Origin: a virus | Strand: one strand, 5' to 3' | DNA length: 64,000 bases | Virus record (IMG/VR): IMGVR_UViG_3300002483_000009 | Span: 5,111-69,110 of that record | Part shown: piece by piece, positions 34,444 through 57,004 of the stretch | Layout: every line of letters starts with the position of its first letter | Position numbering within the stretch: position 1 is the stretch's first letter | Notes under the pieces: model-generated | What the model was told of the DNA's origin: nothing | Database searches by the model: none | What the model saw: only the letters and a program-made list of their open reading frames with translations | Translations under genes and position numbers: made by a program

Positions 34444-34903
34444 CATTTATCACATATTCGCAGATCATAATGCAGATGTAAACGCAATGGAGTTTACAAC
34501 AAAGATGCGTAAATTTCTCGACCAGATGGTTGAAATGAAAAGAATGAATTCCTATAGACTTACAAGAGCAAAACTAGGATTCAGATCAATGAATCTTCCA
34601 GAGTTTCACATAATGATGGAGTTTGATAATATGCAACAACTAGATGATGCAATGACTTCTGTTATAAGAAATGAAAAGAATATAGAGGAGTCACACGTTG
34701 GATTCAACCAACTAGTTGATGTTGAAACAATACAGCATTTTCTGTACAGAGATTATCCAGACGATATCAAAATTGAACAACCAAAAGTGCAAGAAAACAA
34801 ACCAATAGATCCTGAGTTAGAGAAACGTATGAAAGGCAGTTGGACAGTTGAAGAGATTGTTGAATCAATGAAAAACAGTCATCCGGAGATATGGAAAAAG
34901 TAG
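34436..34903 (+). CDS. DUF6614-like protein, 155 aa
   Basis: TTG start overlapping the end of amidinotransferase copy 2. The first 110 residues (IYHIFADHNADVNAMEF, MNSYRLTRAKLGF, LPEFHIMMEFDNM, QHFLYRDYPDD) resemble DUF6614 as I remember it, a dimeric alpha/beta-barrel-like family of unknown function. The C-terminal extension is helical and charged. It sits directly upstream of queE with a 13-bp overlap. Confidence 0.65.
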   Translation: MADIYHIFADHNADVNAMEFTTKMRKFLDQMVEMKRMNSYRLTRAKLGFRSMNLPEFHIMMEFDNMQQLDDAMTSVIRNEKNIEESHVGFNQLVDVETIQHFLYRDYPDDIKIEQPKVQENKPIDPELEKRMKGSWTVEEIVESMKNSHPEIWKK

Positions 34904-42345: not shown

Positions 42346-42630
42346 ATGGTAGCAAAAAAGAAAAGTTTGAAGAAGCCAGACGAAGCAACCGGAACGGCGA
42401 CGGCCAATCCGCAGGCTCCACAACAGGATCCAACTGCTTTATCTATCGGCGACTTGAAGAATCTTTCTACAATACTTGATGTAGCATCTACAAGAGGTGC
42501 ATTCAAGGCCGGTGAAATGGCAGGAGTAGGATTCTTATATAACAAACTTCAGGCGTTCTTAGCCAAAGTGGCACCGGAACAAAAACCTGAAGGTAATGCA
42601 GGAGCATCAGCACCTGCGGAAGGAAAATAA
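42346..42630 (+). CDS. hypothetical protein, 94 aa
   Basis: Lys-rich start and Ala/Pro/Gln-rich linkers at both ends, with a helical middle (LSIGDLKNLSTILDVASTRG, FKAGEMAGVGFLYNKLQAFL). Probably a small adaptor or DNA-associated protein. Good Shine-Dalgarno. The next gene starts one base after its stop. Confidence 0.62.
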   Translation: MVAKKKSLKKPDEATGTATANPQAPQQDPTALSIGDLKNLSTILDVASTRGAFKAGEMAGVGFLYNKLQAFLAKVAPEQKPEGNAGASAPAEGK

Positions 42631-42631
42631 T

Positions 42632-43177
42632 ATGGCAACTCTAATGAACGTGAACAACCAGGCTATGCCAATGGGTGAAAACACAGGAGCGGCAGGTGAT
42701 GGTCAGACGGGTCCAAAGAGACACTTCAAACATATTGGAGAATTAGCGGATGAGTCAAAAGCGAAAGTAGTAATCATGTACAGAACAGTACCAGGCGAGG
42801 CAGACAACTGTCTAGTAGTTGGCACTAAATTTTTACCTGATATGTACCACAATGCATTAATGAAAGCAGTTGAATCAGAAGGCGGACAACAAGCAGAAGA
42901 ATTTGCAGATTTCGCCAGCAGACAGACTTTCCCTGATGGCACTAATATGTTACAACTTTTACACAATGACAATTACATCAAAAAGTTTAAGACCAAAGAG
43001 ATAATGGTCACTTTTGGTTCAACAGAAGATGGTAGAATTCTACTTAACAAGTTGAACGAGATGATAGCAAAAGAGAAAGGTGTATCAGTTAAAGATCTTG
43101 CACAAGATCCAGAAGCACCAGCGGCCAAGAAAAAAGCGTCAAAAAAAGATGCCAAAGAGACAGCCGCCAAAGAATAG
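42632..43177 (+). CDS. hypothetical protein, 181 aa
   Basis: Start at 42632 (MATLMNVNNQAMP); the upstream part of the frame belongs to the previous gene. The core (RHFKHIGELADESKAKVVIM, NCLVVGTKFLPDMYHNALMK, GRILLNKLNEMIAKEKG) is alpha/beta with a Lys/Ala-rich tail (AAKKKASKKDAKE). Reminiscent of abundant small nucleoid-associated or head-associated proteins, but unassigned. Confidence 0.62.
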   Translation: MATLMNVNNQAMPMGENTGAAGDGQTGPKRHFKHIGELADESKAKVVIMYRTVPGEADNCLVVGTKFLPDMYHNALMKAVESEGGQQAEEFADFASRQTFPDGTNMLQLLHNDNYIKKFKTKEIMVTFGSTEDGRILLNKLNEMIAKEKGVSVKDLAQDPEAPAAKKKASKKDAKETAAKE

Positions 43178-43490
43178 TACATGGGTACAACTTACGAAGG
43201 ATTTCGTAAAAGAGTGGCCGGAGGTACTGGATGGTTTACACTTCCAGAACATGCCGGTCAAGTACCTGTTGTATGTAAATCTTATTCTTAAGAACAACAT
43301 CACAATAAACTACAATATACAAAAAGAGCTCAAATCAAAAAAGCAGACCAGCATTGCTAGATTCCTTAAATCTACAATAGAGCAAAACTATTCTAAGATA
43401 AAGAACGTGCATCTGAAGTTTGATATTCCAAAGTTAAAAAAAGACATGGAGTCAAAAACTTCATTAATGCTTTCTAAGACATTCAAGTAA
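43149..43490 (+). CDS. hypothetical protein, 113 aa, start uncertain
   Basis: The frame containing TKDFVKEWPEVLDGLHFQNM, LYVNLILKNNITINYNI and VHLKFDIPKLKKDM is coherent and ends at a TAATG overlap with the next gene. The first ATG that includes all of it is 43149, inside the previous gene; an internal ATG at the MPVKYL segment is the alternative. Unrecognised. Confidence 0.55.
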   Translation: MPKRQPPKNSTWVQLTKDFVKEWPEVLDGLHFQNMPVKYLLYVNLILKNNITINYNIQKELKSKKQTSIARFLKSTIEQNYSKIKNVHLKFDIPKLKKDMESKTSLMLSKTFK

Positions 43491-44128
43491 TGACCTACGA
43501 TAAGAAATTTTTAATTATTACAGCACACCCCGATGACCTGGAGATGGCCTGTGGCGGATTAGTTGCCAAGATAAAAGCGAACGGTGGAAGTGTTACCAAC
43601 CTAATACTTGTACAGCCATCTGCCGAAATAAATGAAAAAAGGAACATGCAGATTGTCAAAAAGGAATTGGACAAGAGCCAAGACATTTTAGGATTCAAGT
43701 CAGTGGTATACAACACGCCATTGCATGACAACGGAAGACCAAATTTAACACTTGATAATAATTTAATTACTGATGCAGAACATATTGCCCAAGGACATGA
43801 CATTTTGATCACACATTGGAAAGAGGATCATCATCAAGATCATAGAGTGTGCTATGATGTAGGACGCAGTATTGCTAGGAAAAATTTTCAACAGTTTTGG
43901 TGTATGGATGAACCGCCATATAATCTACATTACAAAAATTTCAATTGCAACCAATATGTAGATATAACCGATTATGTTGATACTAAAATAAAGGCCTTAC
44001 AATCATATGACACTTACTTTAATAAAGACAGCATAGATACAATAATAAATTACAATAGATACAGAGGCAGTTTTTTGGGATCGGGCAAGGTTGCAGAAAC
44101 GTTTCAAATAATGTACAATAAAATATGA
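43490..44128 (+). CDS. PIG-L/LmbE-type N-acetylglucosaminyl deacetylase
   Basis: 212 aa. LIITAHPDDLEMACGG is the AHPDD zinc motif and HWKEDHHQDHRVCYD supplies the downstream HxxDH. Family reaction: zinc-dependent removal of acetyl from GlcNAc conjugates or similar. ATGA-coupled to a sugar epimerase, so it probably belongs to sugar or glycan modification. Rossmann-like N-terminus is typical. Confidence 0.88.
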   Translation: MTYDKKFLIITAHPDDLEMACGGLVAKIKANGGSVTNLILVQPSAEINEKRNMQIVKKELDKSQDILGFKSVVYNTPLHDNGRPNLTLDNNLITDAEHIAQGHDILITHWKEDHHQDHRVCYDVGRSIARKNFQQFWCMDEPPYNLHYKNFNCNQYVDITDYVDTKIKALQSYDTYFNKDSIDTIINYNRYRGSFLGSGKVAETFQIMYNKI

Positions 44129-45126
44129 GAATTTTAGTATTAGGCGGTTATGGTTTTATTGGCAGTCACATATGCCAACAATTAAAAGCAGAAGGACACA
44201 CGATAGGTATTGTTGACTGCTTTCATCAGTATTACACATTTCCAGACTGGGAGTACCATCCTGTTTTATCACAAAGGAAATCGATTACAAATACAGACAA
44301 AGAATACATAGGACAAATTGAGAACTTTCAATTTATGGAACAGACATTCGAAGATTTCAAGCCAGAAAGAGTAATTCACGTAGCGACGTATCCAAATGCT
44401 AGAATGGTCAAAAGAAATGTGCTAGATGCAACCAACAACATGATCACTGCCACTGCGTATATCTTAGATTTATGTGTGAAACATAAAGTTGAAAAAATTG
44501 TATATGCATCAAGCAGTATGGTCTATGGTGAATTTAATGGAGGCATTCCAGATGAGAATGTTGTGCCAAAACCTAACACACTTTATGGTTCATATAAAAG
44601 ACAAGGGGAGTTGATGTGTAAAATTTGGCATCGTGAACAAGGATTGAATTATGTAATAATGAGGCCTTCCGCATTGTATGGTGAGAAAGATACTATCACA
44701 CGTGTTATAAGTCAATTAGTCAAAAATGCTTTGACTGTTGGGGACATGACTGTACAAGGTCCTGACAATAAACTTGATTTCTCAAATGTCTTAGATGTGG
44801 CCAAATACTTTGCACTAGCAACAACAAACGAAGTAGTAAATGAAACATTTAATTGCACTAGAGGTAATGGAAGAAAAATTGTTGAAGCGGCTGAAATAAT
44901 TAAATCAAGATTGGGAGTGGGTAACATAATAACAAAACCACACGATGCATTCTATCCTAATAGAGATACATTAAACAGTGACAAAGCAAAAACCATGTTA
45001 AATTTCAATCCAACTATAGATATAGAGCAAGGTATACCAAAATACATAAATTGGTTTTTAAGACAACCGTTCTATTTTCAAAATTTAGATATTAATAAAA
45101 AGTTTCAGTTGGGTACAACTGTTTAA
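44125..45126 (+). CDS. NAD-dependent nucleotide-sugar epimerase/dehydratase
   Basis: 333 aa extended SDR. NAD motif LGGYGFIGSHI, SSSMVYG before a YGSYKRQGE catalytic YxxxK, and MRPSALYGEKD. Works on a UDP- or other NDP-sugar; exact reaction open. ATGA overlap with the deacetylase. Its 3' end overlaps the minus-strand glycosyltransferase gene by 35 bp; it is the last plus-strand gene. Confidence 0.88.
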   Translation: MRILVLGGYGFIGSHICQQLKAEGHTIGIVDCFHQYYTFPDWEYHPVLSQRKSITNTDKEYIGQIENFQFMEQTFEDFKPERVIHVATYPNARMVKRNVLDATNNMITATAYILDLCVKHKVEKIVYASSSMVYGEFNGGIPDENVVPKPNTLYGSYKRQGELMCKIWHREQGLNYVIMRPSALYGEKDTITRVISQLVKNALTVGDMTVQGPDNKLDFSNVLDVAKYFALATTNEVVNETFNCTRGNGRKIVEAAEIIKSRLGVGNIITKPHDAFYPNRDTLNSDKAKTMLNFNPTIDIEQGIPKYINWFLRQPFYFQNLDINKKFQLGTTV

Positions 45127-46417
45127 ATTTATCTCTACAAAAATCCCAAGTATAAGTTTTTAAAATTTTATCTTCGTCAAACTCACACTCTTCTGTAAAT
45201 TGTTTACCGTCATGCGATCCTTTGGACAACCATTCGTTATCAGTGTCCAGCCATTTTTTTAACCTATGACTTGTTTCAACAGTAGGTTTTTTACTGTGCC
45301 ATAGTACTAATTTCGAAACTTCCCTGAAAGCATTTTTCCAAGCCGTGTATGGATCAGGTGCCAGGAGAGATTCGCTGGCTACAATGGGCACAACTTCGTG
45401 AGGCTGTGACAGTGTGAAATCCAGTATGTTATTATCGGGTGTTGCCAAACAAAGTGATTTGCTGTATAGATCTATGTTAAAGGTTCCGTATTCTAAGTCC
45501 AATTCGTTTAATCTTGCATGGAATATCCTATGTCTTTTTGATAGTCCCCTGTCGACTGTGTAATCAAATCTAAAATCATCTTTCACAATACTTTTGGCAA
45601 AAACTGCATAGAAATATTCTGTCCCCGATGTTTCTGCCGCTTTCTTGTATGCTTTGGTACGACCGTCGACCCCTTTTATCCAATGTAATTTGTTAGATAG
45701 GTTATTCTTTTGTAAATGCTCTTGCAATATTTTGAAATTTTTATCCTCAAATGGTTCTCCATTGGAAATAAATGTTATATCGAAACAATCTTTTTTATCC
45801 TCTTCACCAATCACGTACAACAACGGATAGTCGTATATTTGTGTTTTGATTGAGTCTAATGCTTTCCTTGGAATATAAAATGTGTTTTTGTCTTTATAAA
45901 TTTTTAAATCTTCCCAGTAAGAAGGATAAATCTTGCTATTGTTTTCTTTTTCATAGTATCTAATATAACTTGCATTAGAAATTTTTATGTCTGGTATGTT
46001 GTGTATAACATTTTCTAGATTGTATTCCAAGTCATGAAAATCAAAATCATAATTGCCATTGTACTCATGATAATTTACGTCTTTAAAATCTCGTAAAAAT
46101 TTAATTTTTTGCTCTGAAAAACATTTAGGAAATAAAAATGTGTCTCCTTCATTTTGCCCTTTTTCACTCCAAACGTGTAATTGCTTTGTTTGATGCTGTT
46201 CTGGTATGTAATCGAAATCAAATTTTGTGTAATCAATTTTTGTGCTTAACAACCAAGTGTATTCTGTGTTGGATGTTGATAGCATTGATTTTATAATATC
46301 ATGATAACTGTTAACGAATGGCACAATAATTGCATGTGGAAACTTATTACGTATCGTTTGCAAATTAATGTCAGTGTTTTTGTTTTTAAAATCTACTACT
46401 ACACAATCAAACGCCAT
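45092..46417 (-). CDS. large glycosyltransferase-like protein
   Basis: 441 aa; start taken at the ATG at 46417 (MAFDCVVVDF), which overlaps the DegT gene by 11 bp. The C-terminal half has DITFISNGEPF, NKLHWIKGVDGRTKAYKKAA and TEYFYAVFAKS, the same pattern as the GT-A-like protein at 58361 (VDGVVGFDSAHKAAAEKAET). No clear DxD at the expected place (AKSIVKDDF). Probably a divergent GT-A glycosyltransferase acting on a surface or virion glycan. Last gene of the minus-strand operon. Confidence 0.6.
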   Translation of the reverse strand: MAFDCVVVDFKNKNTDINLQTIRNKFPHAIIVPFVNSYHDIIKSMLSTSNTEYTWLLSTKIDYTKFDFDYIPEQHQTKQLHVWSEKGQNEGDTFLFPKCFSEQKIKFLRDFKDVNYHEYNGNYDFDFHDLEYNLENVIHNIPDIKISNASYIRYYEKENNSKIYPSYWEDLKIYKDKNTFYIPRKALDSIKTQIYDYPLLYVIGEEDKKDCFDITFISNGEPFEDKNFKILQEHLQKNNLSNKLHWIKGVDGRTKAYKKAAETSGTEYFYAVFAKSIVKDDFRFDYTVDRGLSKRHRIFHARLNELDLEYGTFNIDLYSKSLCLATPDNNILDFTLSQPHEVVPIVASESLLAPDPYTAWKNAFREVSKLVLWHSKKPTVETSHRLKKWLDTDNEWLSKGSHDGKQFTEECEFDEDKILKTYTWDFCRDKFKQLYPTETFY

Positions 46418-47489
46418 AATATTCTCCAATACATTTACATATGTAAAGAACTTCTTGTTTTTTAAGAAAAGGATGTATTGGTAATGATAACACGTCTGTA
46501 CAGAATTTTTCAGCATTTGGCATTTCCTGTCCGTTATCAAACATCTTCATTTTAGACATTGGTTGTGGATAATGTATTTGTGTCTGTATACCTTTCTCTT
46601 CTAAAAATTTTTTAAGACCATCTCTGTCCTGTGTTTTAATTACTAGTTTGTGATTGTTTGATATTGTACCTGTGCCTGTTTGTATCGAATTTATACCTAG
46701 ATCCAAAAGTTTTTCTTCATACCACTTTCTCACCTTCTTTGTTTTGCCTAGAAGTCCTTTGTACTTCGACAGCAAGAAATTTAAAATATTTGCGTGTTCA
46801 TGACTCATGCATGAGTTATAACCATGGTTTAACTTTGCTGTGCCTTGACCATGATATCTAAGGCTACGTATTAGATCTCTATCAATTTCGCTATCTGTCA
46901 AAACCATACCACCGTTGCCGAAAGCAGGTAATGGTTTACTTGGTGCAAAACTCAAAGTGCTTATATCACCAAGTTTGCCGCTTGGCACATTATTGTAATA
47001 ACTTCCAAAACTCTGTGCCGCGTCCTCTATCAAAGGTATTCTTCTCTTTACACAAAATTCTTTGAGTGTTGAATAGTCAGCAAGATTGCCAAAAAGATTC
47101 ACATATACCACAGCGTCAGGCAATCCAAAGTCAGGTAATTTTGAAATCAACCCTTTGTTGTCAACGTCCACAAAATTTATTGTAGCACCTGTTCTTTTTA
47201 TCGATTCGGCCGTGGCCAAATAACTGATTGCAGGACAAAGTACTGTGCTCTCAGGTCCTATGCCTTTGGCTCTAAGGGCAAAGTATAATGCATCGGTACC
47301 ACTACCTACAGCGATAGCATATTTTCTTTTTGTGTGTTTTGCCACTGCGGATTCAAACTGATCAACATAACTTCCTTCAACGTGTCTGTTACCAACTACG
47401 TTTCCTGTTTTCCAAACTTGCTTGGCTCTACGTGTGATACGCCAACTGTATTCGTCATATATTCTGTCCAAACCATTGAACTTTATCAT
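46407..47489 (-). CDS. DegT/DnrJ/EryC1 PLP-dependent sugar aminotransferase
   Basis: 360 aa from the ATG at 47489 (ATGA overlap with the carbamoyltransferase). YAIAVGSGTDALYFAL is the PLP-phosphate site, LIEDAAQSFGSYY gives the ring-contact Asp and Gln, and SFAPSKPLPAFGNGG gives the Schiff-base Lys. Reaction: transfer of an amino group from glutamate to a keto-sugar nucleotide. Pairs logically with the epimerase at 44125 and the acyltransferase-like 49094. Confidence 0.92.
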   Translation of the reverse strand: MIKFNGLDRIYDEYSWRITRRAKQVWKTGNVVGNRHVEGSYVDQFESAVAKHTKRKYAIAVGSGTDALYFALRAKGIGPESTVLCPAISYLATAESIKRTGATINFVDVDNKGLISKLPDFGLPDAVVYVNLFGNLADYSTLKEFCVKRRIPLIEDAAQSFGSYYNNVPSGKLGDISTLSFAPSKPLPAFGNGGMVLTDSEIDRDLIRSLRYHGQGTAKLNHGYNSCMSHEHANILNFLLSKYKGLLGKTKKVRKWYEEKLLDLGINSIQTGTGTISNNHKLVIKTQDRDGLKKFLEEKGIQTQIHYPQPMSKMKMFDNGQEMPNAEKFCTDVLSLPIHPFLKKQEVLYICKCIGEYYGV

Positions 47490-48949
47490 AAAACTTTCAC
47501 TCCGTATTTTGCTGTCCAATCTTTACCATCTTTGGTGTCATTTACCATGGGCATACCCTTAATATTCAAACTGGTGTTCAAAAGTATTGGACAACCCGTT
47601 TCTTTCTTCCATGCTTTCAGCAGTTCATAAAACCCTTCATTGTCGCTTTTTGACACGGTTTGCACCCTAGATGTGCCATCATAGTGTAATATGGCAGGAC
47701 AGTCTTTACCATGCGTGTACGCCGCTGTATATTGCATATAAGGGGTGTTTTTGACGCCGGTAGGTAGGGCAAAATAGTCGTTTACATCCTCTTCTAGTAT
47801 GGCCGGAGCGAACGGTCTGAACTTCTGCCTTTTCTTGATTGCGTTTACCAGATCCTTGATGTCCTCACCCCTCGGGTCTGCCAAAAGCGATCTATTACCA
47901 AGTGCCCTCGGTCCAAACTCTGCTCTGCCATTTGCGACTCCCACCATCTTGTTTTCTTTCAATTCTTTTATTATTGCGTCCACAGGATACTCACCTTCTA
48001 TGTTGTGTCCAAGGAATGGATGTTCCCATTTGATATGAGATTTTTCATTTGCCGCTATGCAACCCAAACTGGAACCTGCGTCTCCTGGATTTGGTATTAT
48101 CCATATGTTGTCAAACAATCCAAGATTAGCCAACACTTTGTTGGCCGCACAGTTGAGTGCTACTCCACCGGCATATACCAAATTACGTGATCCATACTTG
48201 CTGGCTCTATGCCATAACCCTGCAAGGCATTCTTCTGTTACCGACTGTATACTTGCGGCGAGGTCCATGGGATCTGCTTCCGGATGCCAATCTCCCAACC
48301 CTCTGTGTAGATTCTGTTTGAGTTTGAAAGGAGATTGATGCACGAAGTCGTTGTATATGTCATCTTTGTATTTTGGTTCACCGTAAGCGGCCATTCCCAT
48401 TAGAATATATTCCTCCTCGGCAGGTTTCAGTCCACAACGATGTGTGAATGCAGAATACAATATACCTAAACTATGTGGATATTTTATTGTTTCTTTTCTT
48501 TCTATCCAAATTTTTTCCGCTGTGCTTATTGAAACAGTATCCCATTCACCTATTGCATCCACTGTCAGTATTGTTGCTTCTCTGAATGGCGATGTAAAGT
48601 ATCCTGCGGCGGCGTGTGAGTCATGGTGTTTCACATACTCATCTATCTTAATATTGAAGTGATCCAAGTGCCACTGTGGAAGTTCTGTGTAACTCAATGC
48701 GTCTGTGTATTGTCCTGCATATAGTTGACGTGTTTTCTTAAGCCAGGGTTTTTCGTAGTAAACAACCTTGTCGAAAGGTCCATATGTCATTGCCTCATTG
48801 ACTATCGCCTGATTCAAATAATGATCATTCTTTACTTTGGAATAACGTTCTGCGTGTGCGGCCCAAAGTATTTTTCCTATTCCTGAACTGTAATCAACTA
48901 CTGCCATAGCGGCATCATGATTCATGCAATTAATTCCCAGTATCTTCAT
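47486..48949 (-). CDS. NodU/CmcH-type carbamoyltransferase
   Basis: 487 aa. Opening KILGINCMNHDAAMAVVD, KHHDSHAAAGYFTS (Fe/ATP-site His) and LTVDAIGEWD from the kinase-like fold; GGVALNCAANKVL and EFGPRALGNRSLLADPR at the carbamoyl-AMP site; C-terminal PILLNTSLNIKGMPMV. Reaction: carbamoyl phosphate plus ATP to a carbamoylated hydroxyl, usually on a sugar or antibiotic. Common in large marine myoviruses. Acceptor probably the sugar made by this operon (inference). Confidence 0.93.
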   Translation of the reverse strand: MKILGINCMNHDAAMAVVDYSSGIGKILWAAHAERYSKVKNDHYLNQAIVNEAMTYGPFDKVVYYEKPWLKKTRQLYAGQYTDALSYTELPQWHLDHFNIKIDEYVKHHDSHAAAGYFTSPFREATILTVDAIGEWDTVSISTAEKIWIERKETIKYPHSLGILYSAFTHRCGLKPAEEEYILMGMAAYGEPKYKDDIYNDFVHQSPFKLKQNLHRGLGDWHPEADPMDLAASIQSVTEECLAGLWHRASKYGSRNLVYAGGVALNCAANKVLANLGLFDNIWIIPNPGDAGSSLGCIAANEKSHIKWEHPFLGHNIEGEYPVDAIIKELKENKMVGVANGRAEFGPRALGNRSLLADPRGEDIKDLVNAIKKRQKFRPFAPAILEEDVNDYFALPTGVKNTPYMQYTAAYTHGKDCPAILHYDGTSRVQTVSKSDNEGFYELLKAWKKETGCPILLNTSLNIKGMPMVNDTKDGKDWTAKYGVKVL

Positions 48950-49097
48950 CTTCCTCCTTGTGCCATCCCATGTCTTCTATTTGTATGCTTTTACACTTAG
49001 GACAGACCCAACCTTCTTCTGTGTCAAAATCTTCTGCTAGTTCCTGTGCCACTCCCCGCCATTGACAGTCGTAACAATACCAGTTCCACCAAGTCAT
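48930..49097 (-). CDS. small zinc-ribbon protein, 55 aa
   Basis: ATG at 49097, ATGA overlap with the GNAT-like gene. CYDCQWRG and VCPKCKS form two CxxC knuckles of a rubredoxin-like zinc ribbon, with an acidic tail. Possibly a metal- or electron-carrying accessory, which would be relevant next to iron-sulfur radical SAM proteins (inference). Overlaps the carbamoyltransferase start. Confidence 0.7.
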   Translation of the reverse strand: MTWWNWYCYDCQWRGVAQELAEDFDTEEGWVCPKCKSIQIEDMGWHKEEDEDTGN

Positions 49098-49741
49098 CCT
49101 ATTTTGAAGAATCTTTTTGCTTTCTCGAGAGCCTTTTCCCAATCTTCAAGTGTGATGTCGTATTCGAAGTTCTGAGTCTTTTCATTGACTTGCAATTCCT
49201 TTGCACCATTTTTGATATGAAATCTTCTTGCCATTTCTGTCAATGGGGACAGTGTAACAAGTCTGTTTAGGTGATGTGATTTCTTTACCATCTTGTAAAC
49301 TTCATTGACCATGTGTTTACCTCCACCTTTCTTCTTGGCCCACACTGTGTATGCTATTGCTATGTTACCTTGCACACCTGCTCTGTGTACTGCCTGCATG
49401 GCGGCGTCTTTACTCATTACATCCATTTCTTCCACAGTCTTGGGTACGTCATTGGTAAATGCAAAACACATAATTGCACATAAGTCACCCTCTTCGTCCT
49501 TTAATCCAAATATTTTTCTACCGTACGCCTGTCTAAACGCAAGGTCCAGTTCTGGTCTCACAGGATCTTCTGAACAGTCTATGTATGGAAGTTCTATTAA
49601 ATCAAACTTTGGTTCTTTCTCCAACTTCTTTTTTGTATAATTTTGCAGTTTGTCGAACCTATCCATTAAATCTGTGATAGATGGATGTCCCCTCCACTTT
49701 TTAAGAACTTCTTGCAGTTTCTCTTTATTAAGTATGTCCAT
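49094..49741 (-). CDS. GNAT-like acyltransferase, 215 aa
   Basis: N-terminal helical domain, then GNAT-like elements: DLCAIMCFAFTND strand, NIAIAYTVWAKKKGGGKHM with a basic Gly loop where acetyl-CoA pyrophosphate would bind, and EMARRFHIKNGAKEL, the usual helix before the last strand. Divergent, so only the fold is suggested. An N-acyltransferase would suit the DegT product. Follows the small basic protein by three bases. Confidence 0.6.
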   Translation of the reverse strand: MDILNKEKLQEVLKKWRGHPSITDLMDRFDKLQNYTKKKLEKEPKFDLIELPYIDCSEDPVRPELDLAFRQAYGRKIFGLKDEEGDLCAIMCFAFTNDVPKTVEEMDVMSKDAAMQAVHRAGVQGNIAIAYTVWAKKKGGGKHMVNEVYKMVKKSHHLNRLVTLSPLTEMARRFHIKNGAKELQVNEKTQNFEYDITLEDWEKALEKAKRFFKIG

Positions 49742-49849: not shown

Positions 49850-50655
49850 CGTTTTCCTCCTATAAGATTATTAAACATTGGTTTCATTAACATTATAGCA
49901 TCTTCGTGTGCTTTGTCTAGTGGATGTGTTACCCCCCTTTCGTAGTCGTTCAGCAAGGCCCATTGGTTGAAACCCATCATCCTTTCGCCAAAACTAAACC
50001 ATTTGGTAAAATCAATTTCCTTGTGAAGTGCCTGGAGTAAAGGTTCGCCTTCCATAACATGTTTCAATTCATGGTAAAACAAACTATTATCGGCTAGTGT
50101 GAACATAAATGGTATGCCTTTCTTTTGTAAAATATTTTGCAACCAAATTATCGCATTCCAACTGAGATAGGTCTCATGGAACCAATTAGCGGCATGCCTA
50201 TACAATGCATTTGCAAATGGTCTCACACCTGTCTGCTCGTAATTGTCTTCTCTTTTTTTCCATTCATTCAATTGCACTTCAGAATTTGCAAGTGTTCTAT
50301 GTCTCTCTGCCGCACCTATGTTGGTGTCCCACGGCGATATAGAGGCCCATCTTGTGTTTTCCAATGTTTTATGTCTTGGGAATGCCCAGTCATACCTCGA
50401 TGTGAACGTCCACATCACAAATACGCCTTTGATAGTTTTGTGGGGGTGTTTTGAAACTTCCTGGAACACCTTTCTCGCAATGGCACAGTTTCCTATTCCA
50501 CCATCTGCCGTGTTAATTAATTTTTTGCCCAATCCTTGTGTCTGTTGGAACAACCTATACGCCCATGATTTTTTAGAGGGCACCTGTCCCTTGACATCAT
50601 CACTGAGCTCATGTCCAAAAGTAAAACTACAACCACCTGCAATATAATTAATCAT
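49846..50655 (-). CDS. SGNH-hydrolase-like protein, 269 aa
   Basis: IAGGCSFTFGHELSD carries a GxS motif like block I of SGNH/GDSL hydrolases, NTADGGIGNCAIAR gives a Gly-Asn element (blocks II-III), and the C-terminal THPLDKAHEDA could provide the Asp/His pair. Possible esterase or acyltransferase on a glycan or lipid. Overlaps the neighbouring radical SAM gene by 8 bp. A second, shorter SGNH-like protein is at 56402. Confidence 0.65.
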   Translation of the reverse strand: MINYIAGGCSFTFGHELSDDVKGQVPSKKSWAYRLFQQTQGLGKKLINTADGGIGNCAIARKVFQEVSKHPHKTIKGVFVMWTFTSRYDWAFPRHKTLENTRWASISPWDTNIGAAERHRTLANSEVQLNEWKKREDNYEQTGVRPFANALYRHAANWFHETYLSWNAIIWLQNILQKKGIPFMFTLADNSLFYHELKHVMEGEPLLQALHKEIDFTKWFSFGERMMGFNQWALLNDYERGVTHPLDKAHEDAIMLMKPMFNNLIGGKR

Positions 50656-51826
50656 AAATCTGTAATACCTTATTTAAAAGTGGAAAAACTTCTCCAAAAT
50701 TTTCTTTCCTGTACTTGTCTGTACGATGAATTCTCTGTATTCTTTGTTCTCTAATTTCCGGCGTGTCCCTATCAGCCGCGTTCATAAATCTAATGCTAGG
50801 TTGATAGTCTGTGAGCATATGGTACCTGTCTGTCACAATCTGTTTAACTTGTTTTGGTAGTGTTTGTATATTGAAAACATCTGGATCAAAACAGGTGTTC
50901 ACATAAAAAAACTTGGGTTGGTACTGTGCCACCCATAATGAAATCTTTGCCCAATTAAAAACATTGAATACAGATACTGTTGAACATATCTGGAAATCCA
51001 TGTTCTCAGTTTTCCTTTGTTTAAACTTAACAAGGTTAGCACTTACTTCTCGCCATTTTGCAGGGTGCCTTTGATATTCAAATGCATCGCCTATATCGTC
51101 TATACTGAATGCTATCTCCACGTGTTTGAAATACGACCATAAGTCAAATATCTCTTGTGGTGGTAACTGAGTGCCGTTGGTGTTGTAGTGTATATCTATG
51201 TTCTTGGCATATCCTTTTTCAACACAATGCATTAGTATTTTGTAGTGGTCCTTTATCATGAACGGTTCACCTCCTGTGAACTCAAAGTACTCCACGTGTT
51301 TTAGATCCTCCTGCAACTCTTCAAAAAACTGTGGATTACGTTTAGGCCATCCGCCCTCCTTTAATTGTTTCCTTGCAAGGGGATTGTCTTTGCCCTTGGC
51401 TGTTTCATAATCTATTTCTTCTTGAGCCCATTTTGAGGAACTCCACGATCCGCATATTCTACATTTTAAATTACACACATTGCCTAACTTAAAGTCTATG
51501 AACTTGAGCGTTGGCTCGCTATTAGGTGTCCAATCCATCAAACTTTTCTTCATTTTATAAATGCTGTTTTGTCTTTTTGATGTTTTGCCTGCGTCCTCTT
51601 CTTGCCAGCAACTCTGACAACCAGCGGGGCGTTCACCATTCTTAAATTTTTCCCTGAGTTTCTGCATGTATTCATGTCTCTGTATGTCACTTAGGTTTTG
51701 CTCATACACTTTGACATCAGGAATGCTACCTTTGTACAGACAGCAAGGCGATGCCCCACCGTTCACGTCAACTTCCAAGTGTGTCCAGGGTAATGGACAT
51801 ACATTTGATTTTATATACTTGTCCAC
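50648..51826 (-). CDS. radical SAM protein with N-terminal twitch-like motif, RS1
   Basis: 392 aa. N-terminal cysteines: NVCPLPWTHL, SPCCLYKG, and GERPAGCQSCW, a four- to five-Cys auxiliary cluster motif ahead of the core. Radical SAM core: GNVCNLKCRICGSW (CxxxCxxC), EFTGGEPFM (GGE), NTNGTQ and SIDDIGDAFEYQR. The layout resembles the family in which a twitch domain precedes the radical SAM barrel. Such enzymes use SAM and a second Fe-S cluster for peptide or sugar chemistry; the substrate here is unknown. One of five tandem paralogues. Confidence 0.88.
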   Translation of the reverse strand: MDKYIKSNVCPLPWTHLEVDVNGGASPCCLYKGSIPDVKVYEQNLSDIQRHEYMQKLREKFKNGERPAGCQSCWQEEDAGKTSKRQNSIYKMKKSLMDWTPNSEPTLKFIDFKLGNVCNLKCRICGSWSSSKWAQEEIDYETAKGKDNPLARKQLKEGGWPKRNPQFFEELQEDLKHVEYFEFTGGEPFMIKDHYKILMHCVEKGYAKNIDIHYNTNGTQLPPQEIFDLWSYFKHVEIAFSIDDIGDAFEYQRHPAKWREVSANLVKFKQRKTENMDFQICSTVSVFNVFNWAKISLWVAQYQPKFFYVNTCFDPDVFNIQTLPKQVKQIVTDRYHMLTDYQPSIRFMNAADRDTPEIREQRIQRIHRTDKYRKENFGEVFPLLNKVLQIYD

Positions 51827-53208
51827 CAGTCTAATGCCTTTTTGTTTTTTGCTAATATTTTTGTTATGTCTGTTCCTCTAATTTTATCCAGGCGTTGGAC
51901 TTCTGCTTTTCCTTGTTTTTGCCCTTGCTTGTATGTTTCTTCATCATACACCAATTCATTGTTTCTTTTTTGTTTCTGCATCTCGTCTAACTGCCCGAAA
52001 AAATTGTTTAAATTTTTATTTTTATATTTGATTGTTTTGTCTCTGGCGTCATTTATGATCTCGCTCATTATGTCATATGGCATAAACAAAGGAGCCATAG
52101 CATTGTCGTGTGAGAAATTGAACACTTGTTTAGTCAATAATTCTATGTTGAGTTCGTTACTTAACATCACCATGTTTTCCAAATCGAAAAGACCCGGTAG
52201 GGTAATGGTCAAATCCAACTGCATTCTTTGATGTTGCTGTTTTACAAATTGTAGTCCATACTTCATGTTTGCCAACCATTCGTCATACTTTAAACCTGTC
52301 CTAATGTATTCTCCCACTTCTCCTGTACCATCAATTGACGCACATATCTGCCAGTTAGGATAATGTTTCAATATGTCATCAAATAGATTGTACTTGTAGA
52401 AATTTATTCTGCTCATGTTGGAGTTGTATCTCGCCAATACTTGATCTTGATATCCTAGTTCCACAATCCTCTTCATTGCTTCCCAATGTATCTTCCACAT
52501 TAGGGGTTCGCCTCCGCACCAATATAACTCGGTGATACGTTTCTGTTCAACTGCTTCTGTGAATTCTTTTACCACTTGCTGATCATGGAATTGTTCTAAC
52601 TGTGCTTTGATATCTTTTCTGCCCCAAATTCTGTAACGATCATAATCACCTCTGCCGTTTTTCTTATTTTCAGTTTCCCAACTACTGCTCAGCATGTCGC
52701 CACACATTCTACAACTAAAATTACACAGATTAGAAAACCTATAATCAAAACTCTCCACCTGCATTGTTGTGGCACCTGTCTCATCTGTGCTGTTGAATGC
52801 TTCTTCGATTTTATTTTTATACAACCAATTAAAATGTTGTCTGTACACTTGTTCGTTAAGGAGTTTGTGATTGCACACAGCACACTGCGGTATCTCTTCA
52901 CCTGCCAATAATTTCAATCTCACACTTTTCATATAGTCTGAATTCCAATGCTGTTCCAATGTTGTGAGATTCATCTTATCATTATTTCCCTTTGGATCGA
53001 AGGTATCAATGTACTGTTTGAAATTGGTAGATGATTCACGTGAACTGCAACATAAACGTCTTTCCATCTGCGGTGACAGATATGTGTGAGTCCATGGTGC
53101 CATGCAGAATGTTTTGTTTCCGTCTTTTGGCTTAATCCTTTGATTCATCTTAGACACAATACCATTCCTTGGCCACCTTTCATCTGCTGTTGGAAATCTA
53201 TCTGCCAT
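51811..53208 (-). CDS. radical SAM protein with N-terminal twitch-like motif, RS2
   Basis: 465 aa, the longest paralogue. N-terminal cysteines KTFCMAPWTHTY, RRLCCSSRE and IPQCAVCNH; core SNLCNFSCRMCGDM; LYWCGGEPLM with GGE; SIDGTGEVGEYIRTG. The C-terminal 60 residues are charged and rich in Lys/Gln, absent from the others. Overlaps RS1 by 16 bp and the alternative oxidase by 11 bp. Substrate unknown. Confidence 0.87.
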   Translation of the reverse strand: MADRFPTADERWPRNGIVSKMNQRIKPKDGNKTFCMAPWTHTYLSPQMERRLCCSSRESSTNFKQYIDTFDPKGNNDKMNLTTLEQHWNSDYMKSVRLKLLAGEEIPQCAVCNHKLLNEQVYRQHFNWLYKNKIEEAFNSTDETGATTMQVESFDYRFSNLCNFSCRMCGDMLSSSWETENKKNGRGDYDRYRIWGRKDIKAQLEQFHDQQVVKEFTEAVEQKRITELYWCGGEPLMWKIHWEAMKRIVELGYQDQVLARYNSNMSRINFYKYNLFDDILKHYPNWQICASIDGTGEVGEYIRTGLKYDEWLANMKYGLQFVKQQHQRMQLDLTITLPGLFDLENMVMLSNELNIELLTKQVFNFSHDNAMAPLFMPYDIMSEIINDARDKTIKYKNKNLNNFFGQLDEMQKQKRNNELVYDEETYKQGQKQGKAEVQRLDKIRGTDITKILAKNKKALDWWTSI

Positions 53209-53809
53209 TTTCAGCCTCTAGTGTGTCAGCCATGTTATGATTTTCTTGTGCATGACCTCTTTCGTCTTCCCTTACTGCTGTCACAACGTCTCTTAATTTT
53301 GCATCATCTTTTAACCTATAATAATTTTTTGCAATTAGTGGAGCATCTATATTGTCTATTTTGCCTAGATCTATTGCCTTTAGATACGATGTGTAACTTA
53401 TCACTGCTTGTTCCTCAAAATATCCAACCATCCTATGTGCAACTTTAGGGAAAAAAATGTAAAGGAACATATAGAAGTGCCAAAACAAAAATTGTGCCGT
53501 TATAATCATCCAACGTTCAAACCAATTTGGCTTCGCTATTTCGATGAATATCATCAAGTGCATACGTTCATTTTCTGCTTCGGCAAGTAATTTTTGTATC
53601 CACCCTCTATCATCTGGTTTCATTTTTCTCAAACTACGCAGATGGTTCCACATTCCTGCTACCATGCCAGGCACACCTGCAACAGTTTCTAACACAACTG
53701 CCCTATGTCCATAACGTTTTGCAAAGAATGTATCTGCAATCCACCTTAATCTCATAGTGAACCACAATGCACATTTGTCTCCAAAGTCTTTAGGTCTTCT
53801 ATGCCTCAT
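53198..53809 (-). CDS. aox: alternative (ubiquinol) oxidase, AOX
   Basis: 203 aa from the ATG at 53809 (MRHRRPKDF), which fits the AOX N-terminus; the frame is open upstream. Diiron ligands: Glu41 in VLETVAGVPGM, ExxH in AENERMHLM (Glu81, His84), Glu in GYFEEQAVISY, and ExxH in REDERGHAQ. Hydrophobic membrane-surface helices lie in the middle (FLFWHFYMFLYIFF). The motifs are those of proteobacterial/mitochondrial AOX, not plastoquinol PTOX. Reaction: ubiquinol plus O2 to ubiquinone and water, without proton pumping. Overlaps radical SAM genes on both sides. Confidence 0.93.
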   Translation of the reverse strand: MRHRRPKDFGDKCALWFTMRLRWIADTFFAKRYGHRAVVLETVAGVPGMVAGMWNHLRSLRKMKPDDRGWIQKLLAEAENERMHLMIFIEIAKPNWFERWMIITAQFLFWHFYMFLYIFFPKVAHRMVGYFEEQAVISYTSYLKAIDLGKIDNIDAPLIAKNYYRLKDDAKLRDVVTAVREDERGHAQENHNMADTLEAENGR

Positions 53810-55088
53810 ATCTATCGAACAACTCCTTCCATTCAGGAAATACATCTGTAAAATTTTCATTTCTAATTTTATCATATTTTCTTGTTTCGTTTATAAACAT
53901 TTCAAGTTTGTCTGTTTTATCTCTACGGAATAGATAATCCAAAGCACTCTCATAACCTTTTGATGCACGTGTAAGGTGATCTTGTTTTTTTAACCATTCT
54001 ATGTGTTTCTTATATTTTTCTTTAATTTTTTGTTTGTAATCATCAGGTAAAAGATCCATACGTTGCCAGAGAGGATACTGCAACAAATTGAAGTTAAAGT
54101 CTTGTGCTTTGATAAGTCCTTGATCTACCCAGTTTTTATGAAAATCAACTACGTGCAAAGAATTTGCAAGTCCTACCGTAGAACTTATATAAAAATCAAC
54201 TTGTGGACATACTTCTAACATACGTTTTCTGTTTGCAACTGTTTCTTCCCATACTGTACCTTTACGCATAAGTTCTGCACGTGGACCTTCTGCATCTAAA
54301 CTTGCACCAATAGACACAGAATCAAATTTATTCCATAATTCAAATATATCAGTACCTTTGAATTTAGATTTACTAAAGTTTGTATTGTAAATCAATCTTA
54401 CATGATACATTTTACGTTTGTCTAACTCCTTTAATATCCGTAAATGTTCTTCCATTATAATAGGTTCACCTCCAGCAAAGTAAAACTGTTCTACATGATC
54501 AAATTGTTTCAGTAACTGCTCCCAAATATCATTACTGCTTCTACCAGCCCTCATAATTTTTGCATGTGGTGGGGGCGAACCTGTAAGTTTTTTGTGATCT
54601 TCGTACCAGTTACTACTAAACCAAGTGCCACAACTCCTGCAGGCCATGTTGCATAGGTTTGAGAAACGTATATCCCAATATTTGATTACAAAGTCAGCAG
54701 TACCATCTGGCTTTGTTGTATTGACCATGTCTATGTTGTGTCCAAAATGTTTGTTTGAACTTAGACGTAAACTAAAGAAACCTGATTTTTCTTGATCATA
54801 ACATTTGAAACATTCTCGTGATGGTTTATTTGCCAACATATTCAAACGCATCTGTTTCATCTTAGGACCATTGAACACTTCTTCCATTGATTGTTTGTTT
54901 ACATCACCTACTGGCAATTTGTCTAATGCAAAACAACAAGGGTATGCTCTGCCGTCTGGAAATGCATGAAGGTGCATCCATGGTAACATACAGAAGTTAT
55001 CACTATCTATCAACAACTCCTTTTGTTTAGGAGTCATGTCTTTTATCTTAAGTTTCTCGGGCTCTTTGGCCCCATACTCATATGCCAC
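53799..55088 (-). CDS. radical SAM protein with N-terminal twitch-like motif, RS3
   Basis: 429 aa. N-terminal NFCMLPWMHLHAFPDG, YPCCFALD and ECFKCYDQEKSG cysteines; core SNLCNMACRSCGTWFSSNW; FYFAGGEPIIM; ASLDAEGPRAELMRKG. Closest in pattern to RS1 and RS2. Overlaps RS4 by 11 bp and the oxidase gene by 11 bp. Confidence 0.88.
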   Translation of the reverse strand: MAYEYGAKEPEKLKIKDMTPKQKELLIDSDNFCMLPWMHLHAFPDGRAYPCCFALDKLPVGDVNKQSMEEVFNGPKMKQMRLNMLANKPSRECFKCYDQEKSGFFSLRLSSNKHFGHNIDMVNTTKPDGTADFVIKYWDIRFSNLCNMACRSCGTWFSSNWYEDHKKLTGSPPPHAKIMRAGRSSNDIWEQLLKQFDHVEQFYFAGGEPIIMEEHLRILKELDKRKMYHVRLIYNTNFSKSKFKGTDIFELWNKFDSVSIGASLDAEGPRAELMRKGTVWEETVANRKRMLEVCPQVDFYISSTVGLANSLHVVDFHKNWVDQGLIKAQDFNFNLLQYPLWQRMDLLPDDYKQKIKEKYKKHIEWLKKQDHLTRASKGYESALDYLFRRDKTDKLEMFINETRKYDKIRNENFTDVFPEWKELFDRYEA

Positions 55089-56421
55089 GGTACCATTCTC
55101 CTATAATTGGGAAAGTTTTTTCAAAGTCCTTCCCTTGTCGTTTGTCATATTGACTGTAGAATGCTTTAAAGTCCTTTTGCAGTTTACTCTGTTCGGCCGC
55201 ACCTGCGTGTGGTGTCTTTACTACATCTAAATAATCTATTAATCTTTGTGTGTGGTTCACTTCCATTTGTTCTAAAAATTTTTCATTGCCTTTTAAAAAC
55301 TTCACAAGGTCTTCTTTAAATCTGTTACGTAAGTCATCTGGCAATACTAAAGGACTTTGAAAACTTGGAAATCTTAAAATGTTTAGTGTATAATTTATTG
55401 TTGGTCCGTATATGGCACTTGCTGTTTTAAACCAAACTATTTTTTCCAAAAACTCAGGCAATGACTCCAAGCATAATGCATTAATGGTACACATGTTATG
55501 AATTTCTGATGGAACTTTGTCAACCATCATGTGTAATAGATTAGAATGCCATTCGCCATAGTTTAATCCATCTCTGATATATTCTGCTTGTTTGAATGTT
55601 GCTTCACAACTTGTATATAAATGAAAGTGTTTAAATCCTTTCAGTTTGTTTTTAAATCTATCAATAATACTTTGTTTGGCACCAAGATTAGAATTTATTG
55701 CAAGACGCATACCGGGTCTCATTTTGTCTCCTTGCGTTTCGATCCAATCAAGCAGTCGCCATAGGTTAGGGGACATCATTGGTTCTCCTCCAGTGATACG
55801 TAATTCGTCCAGTGTTTTGTGTAGGTCGCTTTCCCACCATTTATAAAATGCCTCGACATAAGGATTGGTCTCATCTTTTTTGTATGGTTCTGCCGAATCA
55901 TGTGCATGGGTGAAGTGGTTACGTCCATCTGACATTAGGCTCATGTATGGTCCTTGATTTTTTATGTTGTTTGCCCATGTCGAACTAAAAGCAGGATTAC
56001 AATACGTGCAGGCAAACTGACACACCCTGTCAAAAGCAATTTCCAACGTTCTTAAATTAAAATCTTTTTGGTGATCAGACTTGTAAGCATCGTCGAGTTC
56101 TTTGTCAGTGTATATTTTTGATTTGTATACTCTGTCACTGATTGCATCTCTGCCTATGTCCTCTATCTTCCAACAGTACTCACAACCTGCAGGTCTTTCT
56201 CCACACTGCATCTGTCTACGTTGTTCTTTCTTTTGCCTTGTGTTGTGTATTGCACTTGGATTCTTTTTAATTTCTTCTAAATCAATTTTGTGTGGCAATG
56301 GGTGATGGCAACTTGTGGTCATACCACTGCCCAACCAAATAGTCGCATTGTACCATTTTGCCGCACAGAAACTTGCGGATTTAGTATCTAATTTTTTTTG
56401 TTTAAACTCTAAGTCGTCCAT
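55078..56421 (-). CDS. radical SAM protein with N-terminal twitch-like motif, RS4
   Basis: 447 aa from the ATG at 56421, short overlap with the SGNH-like gene; an ATG at 56454 is the alternative. N-terminal motif differs: SFCAAKWYNATIW, TSCHHPLPHKID and GERPAGCEYCWKIED; core DRVCQFACTYCNPAFSSTW; LRITGGEPMMSP. It shares the KID...NPSAIHNT...GERP pattern with RS5, so RS4 and RS5 form a subgroup. Confidence 0.88.
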   Translation of the reverse strand: MDDLEFKQKKLDTKSASFCAAKWYNATIWLGSGMTTSCHHPLPHKIDLEEIKKNPSAIHNTRQKKEQRRQMQCGERPAGCEYCWKIEDIGRDAISDRVYKSKIYTDKELDDAYKSDHQKDFNLRTLEIAFDRVCQFACTYCNPAFSSTWANNIKNQGPYMSLMSDGRNHFTHAHDSAEPYKKDETNPYVEAFYKWWESDLHKTLDELRITGGEPMMSPNLWRLLDWIETQGDKMRPGMRLAINSNLGAKQSIIDRFKNKLKGFKHFHLYTSCEATFKQAEYIRDGLNYGEWHSNLLHMMVDKVPSEIHNMCTINALCLESLPEFLEKIVWFKTASAIYGPTINYTLNILRFPSFQSPLVLPDDLRNRFKEDLVKFLKGNEKFLEQMEVNHTQRLIDYLDVVKTPHAGAAEQSKLQKDFKAFYSQYDKRQGKDFEKTFPIIGEWYRGI

Positions 56422-57004
56422 ATACCTTATCTGCCCATTGTTTATTTTGTTCAACTGTCATATGATTTATATCACCTTTGCCCCAGTTGTCTTTGCCGCC
56501 ACTGAACTGAAACATACTTTCGTCTATGAATGTCCCGGTTTTTAATTTTATTCCTGCGTCCTTGTCTGCTGTCTCAAATGGTTTGAAACTCCACATCTGT
56601 ACTATCTCACTTTTTACTTTTGATAACACTTCCTTATCATAGTGCTTGATAGCATATTCGTACGCCATTTCGTCTTTGTCGTAGTTGTGTAAATATTTCC
56701 AATAATTGTCTAAAGTTTTGTAAATGTTTGGGTCAACACCTTCCAATGGTTGTGTGTTTGCACTTAAAATTAAATTTGGATGATACAACCTGTAAGGTTC
56801 AGTCCAACAAAATATAGATATATCCGGAACCATATTGCTTCTTATAAGTTTATTGTATAGAAAGAACACACTCCAAATACTTCTACCTGGACTGCCAAAC
56901 CATCTAATTCTTGCCGCTCCTAATTTCTCTTGTAAGATATTACACCAACTTTCGGGTTGGTTACTTGCACAGAAACTATCTCCAAAAAATCCTATTGTCT
57001 TCAT
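56402..57004 (-). CDS. SGNH/GDSL-hydrolase-like protein, 200 aa
   Basis: ATGA overlap with RS5. IGFFGDSFCASNQPES is a GDS block I, FGSPGRSIWS a Gly block II, and GKGDINHMTVEQN near the end offers the DxxH pair. Compact GDSL esterase/acyltransferase candidate. Located between RS4 and RS5, so it probably serves the same pathway. Confidence 0.72.
   Translation of the reverse strand: MKTIGFFGDSFCASNQPESWCNILQEKLGAARIRWFGSPGRSIWSVFFLYNKLIRSNMVPDISIFCWTEPYRLYHPNLILSANTQPLEGVDPNIYKTLDNYWKYLHNYDKDEMAYEYAIKHYDKEVLSKVKSEIVQMWSFKPFETADKDAGIKLKTGTFIDESMFQFSGGKDNWGKGDINHMTVEQNKQWADKVYGRLRV

Follow-up and report, generated by a model that had tools for sequence, protein, structure and literature searches.

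Hypervariable glycan islands are known from marine T4-like phages, where their genes are usually listed singly as auxiliary metabolic genes. In pelagimyophages, as described in the parts of PMC7029224 that deal with it, the host-recognition cluster (HRC) is a hypervariable region of tail fibres, glycosyltransferases and radical-SAM cassettes, which forms an island between VrlC and gp14 and diverges gradually; the terms carbamoyltransferase, aminotransferase and epimerase do not occur in the main text of that paper. In the Pelagibacter phage Mosig EXVC030M (L004), a DegT aminotransferase, a MoaA-like radical-SAM (rSAM) protein and a carbamoyltransferase form a run on one strand. In bacteria, WbpB/WbpE and QdtB/DesV carry out steps of amino-sugar pathways. 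A phage carbamoyltransferase of the TobZ-like kind is also part of the 5-hydroxymethylcytosine carbamoyltransferase system, according to the text on that system in PMC8670742.

Here, we have analysed a stretch of 64,000 nucleotides, which we refer to as “the window” (Table 1), and we consider it likely that positions 43490-47486 hold one of the alleles of an exchangeable nucleotide-sugar cassette in an uncultured marine phage family of the T4 superfamily. The DNA polymerase is nearest to those of Sinorhizobium phage Phosso (49.9%) and Agrobacterium phage Atu_ph07. As in the HRC, variable content is found together with tail fibres, glycosyltransferases and radical-SAM genes; unlike the gradually diverging HRC, the locus is built around a precise cassette with partner rules. 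The likeness to Mosig EXVC030M consists of a DegT (37%) near a carbamoyltransferase (35%) on one strand, but the gene order is different and 25 kb of that phage contain no match to f2, SDR, PIG-L or UP. The bacterial pathways offer relatives of DegT, as well as a pairing of Gfo/Idh with DegT that recurs in some phage alleles, whereas the phage has its own f2 and no full pathway. The 5-hydroxymethylcytosine system, as presented in that part of PMC8670742, differs from the present locus, where sugar genes adjoin the carbamoyltransferase and nine records contain no thymidylate synthase homologue. No description of such a cassette has been found in the open-licence literature that was searched.

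Table 1. Features of the window that are discussed in the text, with the evidence for each.
Feature	Positions	Strand	Evidence
GT1-type glycosyltransferase, adjoining GalE	26031-27197	+	PF00534 31.3 bits (cut-off 26.4)
GalE-type UDP-glucose 4-epimerase	27136-28191	+	TIGR01179 328.3 bits (cut-off 262.3)
Conserved flank UP, opposite side of cassette from CT	42596-43177	+	With CT, defines 113 loci
f3, small gene of the flank, directly preceding PIG-L	43080-43490	+	Family f3 in 41/45 loci
Exact swap unit (cassette): PIG-L, SDR-A, f2, DegT	43490-47486	both	blastn against other-cassette relatives
PIG-L/LmbE-type de-N-acetylase, type 1	43490-44128	+	PF02585 61.9 bits (cut-off 28.2)
Epimerase-type SDR (SDR-A)	44125-45126	+	PF01370 129.6 bits
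f2, GT-A-like fold protein without DXD	45092-46417 (open frame to 46540)	-	AF2 model, structure comparison
DegT aminotransferase (DegT-AB)	46407-47489 (open frame to 47519)	-	PF01041 244.6 bits
TobZ/NodU-type O-carbamoyltransferase (CT), conserved backbone	47486-48949	-	PF02543 144.2 bits, PF16861 179.1 bits, over cut-off
Small Cys-rich protein, encoded between CT and the GNAT-like gene, outside cassette	48930-49142	-	8/38 clusters
GNAT-fold, malonyl-CoA-decarboxylase-like protein, outside cassette	49094-49741	-	Fold neighbours
GT309, GT-A-like relative of f2 C-domain	58361-59290	-	DGD in 21/21
Glycosyltransferase-like protein	59525-60325	-	phrog_1903 (unknown function); EAD motif by eye
Glycosyltransferase-like protein	60318-61070	-	DCD motif by eye

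Edges and replacement of the swap unit

The cassette is composed of two converging gene pairs, PIG-L and SDR on the plus strand, and f2 and DegT on the minus strand. An earlier note on this DNA had correctly recognised the LmbE-type deacetylase and the SDR on the plus strand, the DegT aminotransferase and the carbamoyltransferase on the minus strand, and the upstream GalE; the tail-to-tail neighbour of the SDR, taken there to be DegT, is in fact f2, and the unit, which was drawn as far as 49741, ends at 47486. These edges come from blastn comparison with relatives that carry other cassettes (L013, L014, L015, L119, L127 and L161), where similarity is lost at 43430-43491 and returns at 47482-47493: the block is replaced exactly, as one unit, by other sugar gene sets. 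No tRNA is present within the window.

Our sample consists of 113 loci in 47 clusters, collected with three queries (DegT, CT and f2), each locus having both flanks, UP and CT, and loci that are cut before a flank being excluded. Across the loci, the cassette beside the carbamoyltransferase measures 1.7-10 kb. When CT and UP are each aligned over at least 90% (26 clusters), the cassette is aligned over at most 5% in 17 clusters, over 25-53% in three and over at least 99% in six. The pairwise identities of f2 are bimodal, with a single pair out of 990 at 45-50%, and f2 identity is at most 45% in 97 of the 231 pairs with CT identity of at least 85%. The flank tree, built from 44 of the 47 clusters (the other three hold at most two of the four flank proteins each), implies a minimum of 26 changes of cassette type, against 29 on the CT tree (47 rows, three of them short fragments); both are quick trees with open forks. 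The identities of SDR-A and SDR-B follow the backbone (rho 0.88 and 0.90), which argues for many of the alleles being old, local ones and against free mobility; f2, SDR and DegT are retained even in distant phages with CT at 48-54%. The cassette would be exchanged as a unit most likely via homologous recombination in the conserved flanks, i.e. the carbamoyltransferase/rSAM side and the UP/VWA/MoxR side.

The carbamoyltransferase, whose PDB neighbours are novobiocin carbamoyltransferase, GdmN and TobZ, is located upstream of the cassette and is translationally coupled to DegT in the window, where the likely start of DegT (ATG 47489) and the stop of CT overlap in ATGA. Since CT also occurs without the cassette (f2 is absent in 22 of the 69 CT loci with at least 2 kb downstream), we assign it to the backbone and not to the cassette.

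Partner rules among the cassette genes

The 47 clusters combine a shared set of parts in varying ways, which places the neighbourhood far from chance: f2 is found in 45 clusters (absent from two), DegT in 40 (absent from seven) and PIG-L in 15. PIG-L and SDR-A occur together in 15 clusters, neither of them ever alone, and both are missing from 32. Gfo/Idh is found only with DegT-C (14/14), while rSAM-f10 accompanies DegT-C2 in 5/5 cases and never shares a layout with Gfo/Idh. All 11 cassettes with type-1 PIG-L have f2 of clade 2 and DegT-AB; one f2 clade-2 member is without PIG-L type 1.

As 13 of the 47 clusters were reached only via f2 or a genome scan, and are thus biased toward f2, the counts have been redone on the other 34, which were reached by the CT query, a query that does not select for cassette genes. 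PIG-L and SDR-A are both present in 12 of these, either one alone in none, and both absent in 22; for PIG-L type 1 and f2 clade 2, in the 32 clusters with f2, the corresponding counts are eight with both, none with PIG-L only, one with f2 clade 2 only and 23 with neither. Among phylogenetically independent pairs (starred branches), f2 and PIG-L switch together in 4-5 of 5; with so few pairs, this falls short of significance (sign test, median p 0.0625 and 0.125).

PIG-L, SDR, DegT and f2 do not assort independently. The linkage that the earlier note had proposed for five genes thus holds for PIG-L, SDR and DegT, joined by the overlooked f2, and does not extend to CT or to the GNAT-like gene, which is found in 25 of 38 clusters independently of SDR-A (p 0.49).

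Predicted chemistry and the glycosyltransferase-like proteins

The nearest PDB structure to PIG-L is 2ixd, which is LmbE-related, and the metal-site motifs AHP[DE]D and HQDH occur in all 13 distinct family members. SDR-A, which starts within the ATGA that also contains the stop of PIG-L, is nearest to the epimerase 6zl6 and to GalE; in 37 distinct members, GxxGFIG is invariant and SSS-YxxxK, the S-Y-K triad, is found in 35. DegT has mixed PDB neighbours (7b0d, WbpE and QdtB), with the motifs SFxPxK, containing the PLP lysine, and DxAQS in 30/30 sequences.

Judging by these families, a variable amino-sugar cassette is the best reading: the SDR would epimerise or oxidise a nucleotide sugar, DegT would add an amino group to the sugar, and PIG-L would take off an N-acetyl group. 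Cassettes with DegT-AB, the window included, contain no dedicated dehydrogenase for the keto sugar of DegT; in other alleles, Gfo/Idh or the radical-SAM enzyme probably makes the keto sugar for the allele's own DegT. The product would be used with f2, the allele of which changes alongside the sugar genes; the backbone carbamoyltransferase and the glycosyltransferases may also take part. Of the acylated, carbamoylated amino sugar that was originally envisaged, the amino sugar is retained at this level, carbamoylation is possible, and acylation by the protein at 49094-49741 has been set aside as unsupported, because its gene is unlinked to the cassette and its highest fold neighbours (Z 12.5-14.1) include malonyl-CoA decarboxylases next to GNAT-like proteins; the GNAT fold itself has been borne out. 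PF05292 is matched by 17 of the 25 members of this family at E up to 1 (best 8e-4) and not by the window member; the family profile gives only chance matches against PDB sequences.

f2 (441-482 residues depending on the start, which is likely ATG 46417) has no match in Pfam, PHROG or NCBIfam. Its AF2 model, with a mean pLDDT of 89.7, has two alternating alpha/beta halves. In the model, residues 208-352 superpose on the GT-A enzyme 9h6l with VIA Z 12.0 and rmsd 2.7 over 140 aligned residues; at the place of the DXD motif, no D occurs in the three aligned columns in any of 30 sequences. Metal-independent GT-A enzymes exist. The predicted fold is GT-A-like and a transferase role is putative. Comparison by hhalign with a GT309 set cleared of f2 sequences (26 of 47 retrieved) relates the C-domain of f2 to GT309 (99.5%, E 6e-23; reversed alignments 0.1%), the match of the N-domain being weak (2.8%, E 0.016), and we do not propose that the two halves arose by tandem duplication. 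A search of a phage collection with f2 gave no match, and a search of a genome collection gave three loci, all on MAG contigs that resemble phage fragments. Three of the four glycosyltransferase-like proteins that had been proposed show a DXD-like motif by eye, the fourth being f2 itself; neither GT309 nor the protein at 60318-61070 has a match in Pfam or PHROG. A speculative and rather unlikely extension is that f2, having lost the metal motif, is an interchangeable specificity subunit in a glycosylation system of the phage, which pairs with the DGD-bearing GT309 of the backbone and recognises the sugar of the co-travelling genes.

Possible target of the sugar and alternative readings

From position only, we lean slightly towards the phage's own late (tail) proteins as the target, rather than the host surface: the minus-strand half of the cassette ends a run of minus-strand genes that starts with tail-fibre-like proteins, and neither a flippase nor a lipid-carrier sugar transferase has been found. 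Either of the latter would mark a self-sufficient O-antigen or polysaccharide synthesis cluster, and ten records, possibly fragments, have neither the initiating transferase (PF02397, 0/10) nor the flippase (PF01943, 0/10). A tie to the conserved tail-fibre-like protein itself is not supported, since its sequence, at 60-81% identity in 20 of 25 records, shows no variation that follows the cassette. It is possible, and somewhat less probable, that the same cassette alters the LPS or O-antigen of the host during infection, blocking other phages: such a target has been proposed for pelagimyophage glycosyltransferases, with PMC7029224 arguing, in the part concerned, for modification of the O-chain, and a surface trait would agree with diversity being retained in the form of old alleles. 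Modification of the host surface would, however, require host machinery, given the same two missing families in these possibly fragmentary records, and the location of the minus-strand half downstream of tail-fibre-like genes suggests late expression.

Host-derived genes that are unrelated, share no pathway and have piled up by chance at a hypervariable site would account for the widely differing gene order and orientation among the 47 clusters and for the few that hold other enzymes at the cassette site, such as the FAD-oxidoreductase-like protein (by eye) of L059; the strict partner rules, the repeated co-switching and the near-constant f2 make this improbable. Still less credible is DNA hypermodification, in which the carbamoyltransferase and the glycosyltransferase-like proteins would decorate hydroxymethylated bases, as a phage carbamoyltransferase is known to act on 5-hydroxymethylcytosine. 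In the relevant part of PMC8670742, proteins of the thymidylate synthase family accompany that system, and the carbamoyltransferases of unmodified contigs sit beside glycosyltransferases, as they do here. We have rejected this reading, since thymidylate synthase (PF00303) was found in none of nine records of up to 196 kb, possibly fragments (control positive in 9/14), and TGT-type PF01702 in none of ten.

With the variable amino-sugar cassette as the preferred reading, these phages probably vary a sugar that is attached to themselves or to the host, the exchange of the cassette resembling that of surface-sugar gene clusters among bacteria. The island here proves to be a precise unit of exchange, with rules that pair deacetylase with epimerase, dehydrogenase with aminotransferase, and the glycosyltransferase-fold allele with the sugar genes; the constant member of the cassette, f2, represents a large phage-borne glycosyltransferase-fold family without the metal motif. 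In phages, the cassette would correspond to an O-antigen or serotype locus, and testable predictions of the sugar chemistry can be made for each of its alleles. If f2 were indeed a specificity subunit, the phage would own a serotype-like locus, with old, recombining alleles that are kept diverse by selection. The alleles match in age the phage lineages in which they are found, a pattern that selection for rarity would leave.

Gene layout around the strand switch

In the virus record from which the window is taken (71,148 bases), a minus-strand run begins at approximately 63.7 kb with tail-fibre-like proteins, continues through glycosyltransferase-like, radical-SAM, alternative oxidase and SGNH-like genes, and ends with a carbamoyltransferase (CT), a DegT sugar aminotransferase and f2, a GT-A-like fold protein; the f2 end of this run (45092) converges on a plus-strand pair, composed of a PIG-L (LmbE-type) de-N-acetylase and an epimerase-type SDR. 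CT and DegT are joined by an ATGA overlap, as are PIG-L and SDR, and the DegT and f2 genes also overlap. The family assignments of PIG-L, SDR, DegT and CT are strong, while f2 found no match in family-profile searches. CT is intact by domain content, with TobZ, GdmN and the novobiocin carbamoyltransferase as family neighbours. The DNA polymerase of the phage is of the T4 type, the nearest being those of Sinorhizobium phage Phosso and Agrobacterium phage Atu_ph07.

Features of the window and of two related loci
Feature	Sequence	Coordinates	Strand	Remarks
YhhQ-type transporter family and nearby QueE-like radical-SAM gene	window	31226-31873; 34891-35793	+	PF02592, 74.3 bits (transporter)
phrog_25854 paralogues	window	32406-33422; 33415-34443	+	in tandem; presumably amidinotransferase-like (by eye)
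UP, flank gene	window	42596-43177	+	
Cassette	window	43490-47486		PIG-L, SDR-A (+); f2, DegT (-)
f2	window	45092-46417	-	
CT, flank gene	window	47486-48949	-	
GNAT-fold protein	window	49094-49741	-	
Five consecutive radical-SAM proteins	window	50648-58395	-	SPASM/twitch type where detected; kept in most relatives
Alternative oxidase	window	53198-53875	-	PF01786, 264.5 bits; within radical-SAM run; no PHROG match; close counterpart in locus L027 at the same position (89%); single match among 50,697 records, Phage C48C1 (56.9%)
Homologue of f2 C-domain	window	58361-59290		
Cassette without f2	L059	11461-13878		same flanks enclose cupin-like and FAD-dependent oxidoreductase-like genes (by eye)
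f2 of 771 aa	L047	12436-14748		N-terminal domains repeated

The swap unit and its partner rules

Scans of viral contigs have returned 78 loci with CT as the query, 7 with DegT and 69 with f2, and a genome collection has added 3; both CT and UP are present, in convergent order, in 113 loci, which form 47 clusters at 95% nucleotide identity. Of the three contigs from the genome collection, one is binned as a betaproteobacterium, one as a Pelagibacter and one as an unnamed bacterium; because they carry the CT and the cassette of the window phage, they look like phage fragments wrongly assigned to MAGs.

Nucleotide similarity between the window and relatives with other gene sets is lost at 43430-43491 and returns at 47482-47493, edges that coincide with the beginning of the PIG-L gene and the stop codon of CT. 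Counted from the alignment table, 26 clusters have both flanks aligned over at least 90%, and of these 17 have an unalignable cassette (at most 5%), 3 a partly alignable one and 6 one that aligns in full; the flank-to-flank length varies from 1.7 to 10.2 kb. Among 69 loci with enough downstream sequence, CT occurs without f2 in 22, of which 19 belong to other phage groups (CT at most 65%).

Across the 47 clusters, f2 is found in 45, DegT in 40, SDR-B in 34, SDR-A and PIG-L in 15 each, Gfo/Idh in 14 and the radical-SAM protein f10 in 5, with an SDR of some type in 44 (layouts read by eye). PIG-L is present exactly where SDR-A is present (Fisher p 1.3e-12); Gfo/Idh is always accompanied by a DegT of the C group (14/14, p 3.4e-8) and f10 by DegT-C2 (5/5), and Gfo/Idh and f10 never share a layout. 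As radical-SAM dehydrogenases provide keto substrates for aminotransferases in aminocyclitol pathways, we read f10, by analogy, as a putative functional stand-in for Gfo/Idh. PIG-L itself occurs in two types: type 2 accompanies Gfo/Idh in 4/4 cases and type 1 in 0/11, while all 11 cassettes with type 1 carry f2 of clade 2, one of whose 12 members occurs with type 2 instead. When the count is restricted to the 34 clusters that the CT query retrieved, PIG-L against SDR-A reads 12/0/0/22, and type-1 PIG-L against f2 clade 2, among the 32 of them with f2, reads 8/0/1/23.

The AlphaFold2 model of f2 (mean pLDDT 89.7) resembles GT-A enzymes at residues 208-352 (Z up to 12.0), and its C-domain is homologous to another protein of the window (hhalign 99.5%, E 6e-23). 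That homologue retains a DGD motif in 21/21 sequences; at the same position f2 has F-P-K, F-A-K, F-P-T and similar, with aspartate in 0/30, and because of this absence f2 would be a transferase that works without a metal, or else a partner without catalytic activity.

Exchange and age of the alleles

CT identity correlates with that of the flank genes UP, VWA and MoxR (rho 0.82, 0.79 and 0.72) and less with that of f2 (0.39), these values being descriptive, as the pairs are non-independent; in 97 of the 231 pairs with CT identity of at least 85%, f2 identity is at most 45%, and a gap at 45-50% divides the f2 clades. A tree built from four flank proteins on the downstream side (44 rows) requires at least 26 changes of cassette type, 9 of SDR-A presence and 12 of f2 clade; the CT tree (47 rows) requires at least 29, 10 and 14, respectively. 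The identities of SDR-A and SDR-B track the backbone (rho 0.88 for 105 pairs and 0.90 for 561 pairs, likewise descriptive), which indicates alleles as old as the phage lineages, swapped mostly among near relatives. The pattern fits old alleles presumably maintained by selection.

Hypervariable glycan islands themselves are known: islands with glycosyltransferases and radical-SAM cassettes appear in marine T4-like phages (PMC7029224). DNA-acting phage carbamoyltransferases have also been described (PMC8670742), and glycosyltransferases belong to the core genes of another large aquatic phage lineage (PMC12619734). No description of the exact swap unit, of its partner rules or of f2 was found in the literature searched.

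Possible target of the sugar and neighbouring functions

Thymidylate synthase was found in 0/9 records, and TGT, PF02397 and PF01943 in 0/10 each, the records possibly being fragments; these absences argue against both the decoration of hydroxymethylated bases and a self-sufficient pathway to a polysaccharide. The location at the end of a tail-fibre-like gene run slightly favours late virion modification; a tail-fibre-like protein itself shows no variation in step with the cassette, and the pelagimyophage authors prefer modification of the host O-chain (PMC7029224). Virion and host O-chain modification are both kept as candidate targets. Elsewhere in the window, the YhhQ-type transporter and the QueE-like gene suggest a queuosine/7-deazaguanine interest, although TGT was found in none of the 10 records.

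The protein beyond CT, which the earlier note had counted in the amino-sugar pathway, shows no linkage to the cassette in the loci compared. It has a GNAT fold (model pLDDT 80.5), and its top fold matches include GNAT-like decarboxylases and malonyl-CoA decarboxylases (Z 12.5-14.1; identity to the latter 18-21%); PF05292 matches weakly in 17/25 members of its family and not in the window's own member. Such a malonyl-CoA-decarboxylase-like phage protein could affect the fatty-acid or malonyl-CoA supply of the host.
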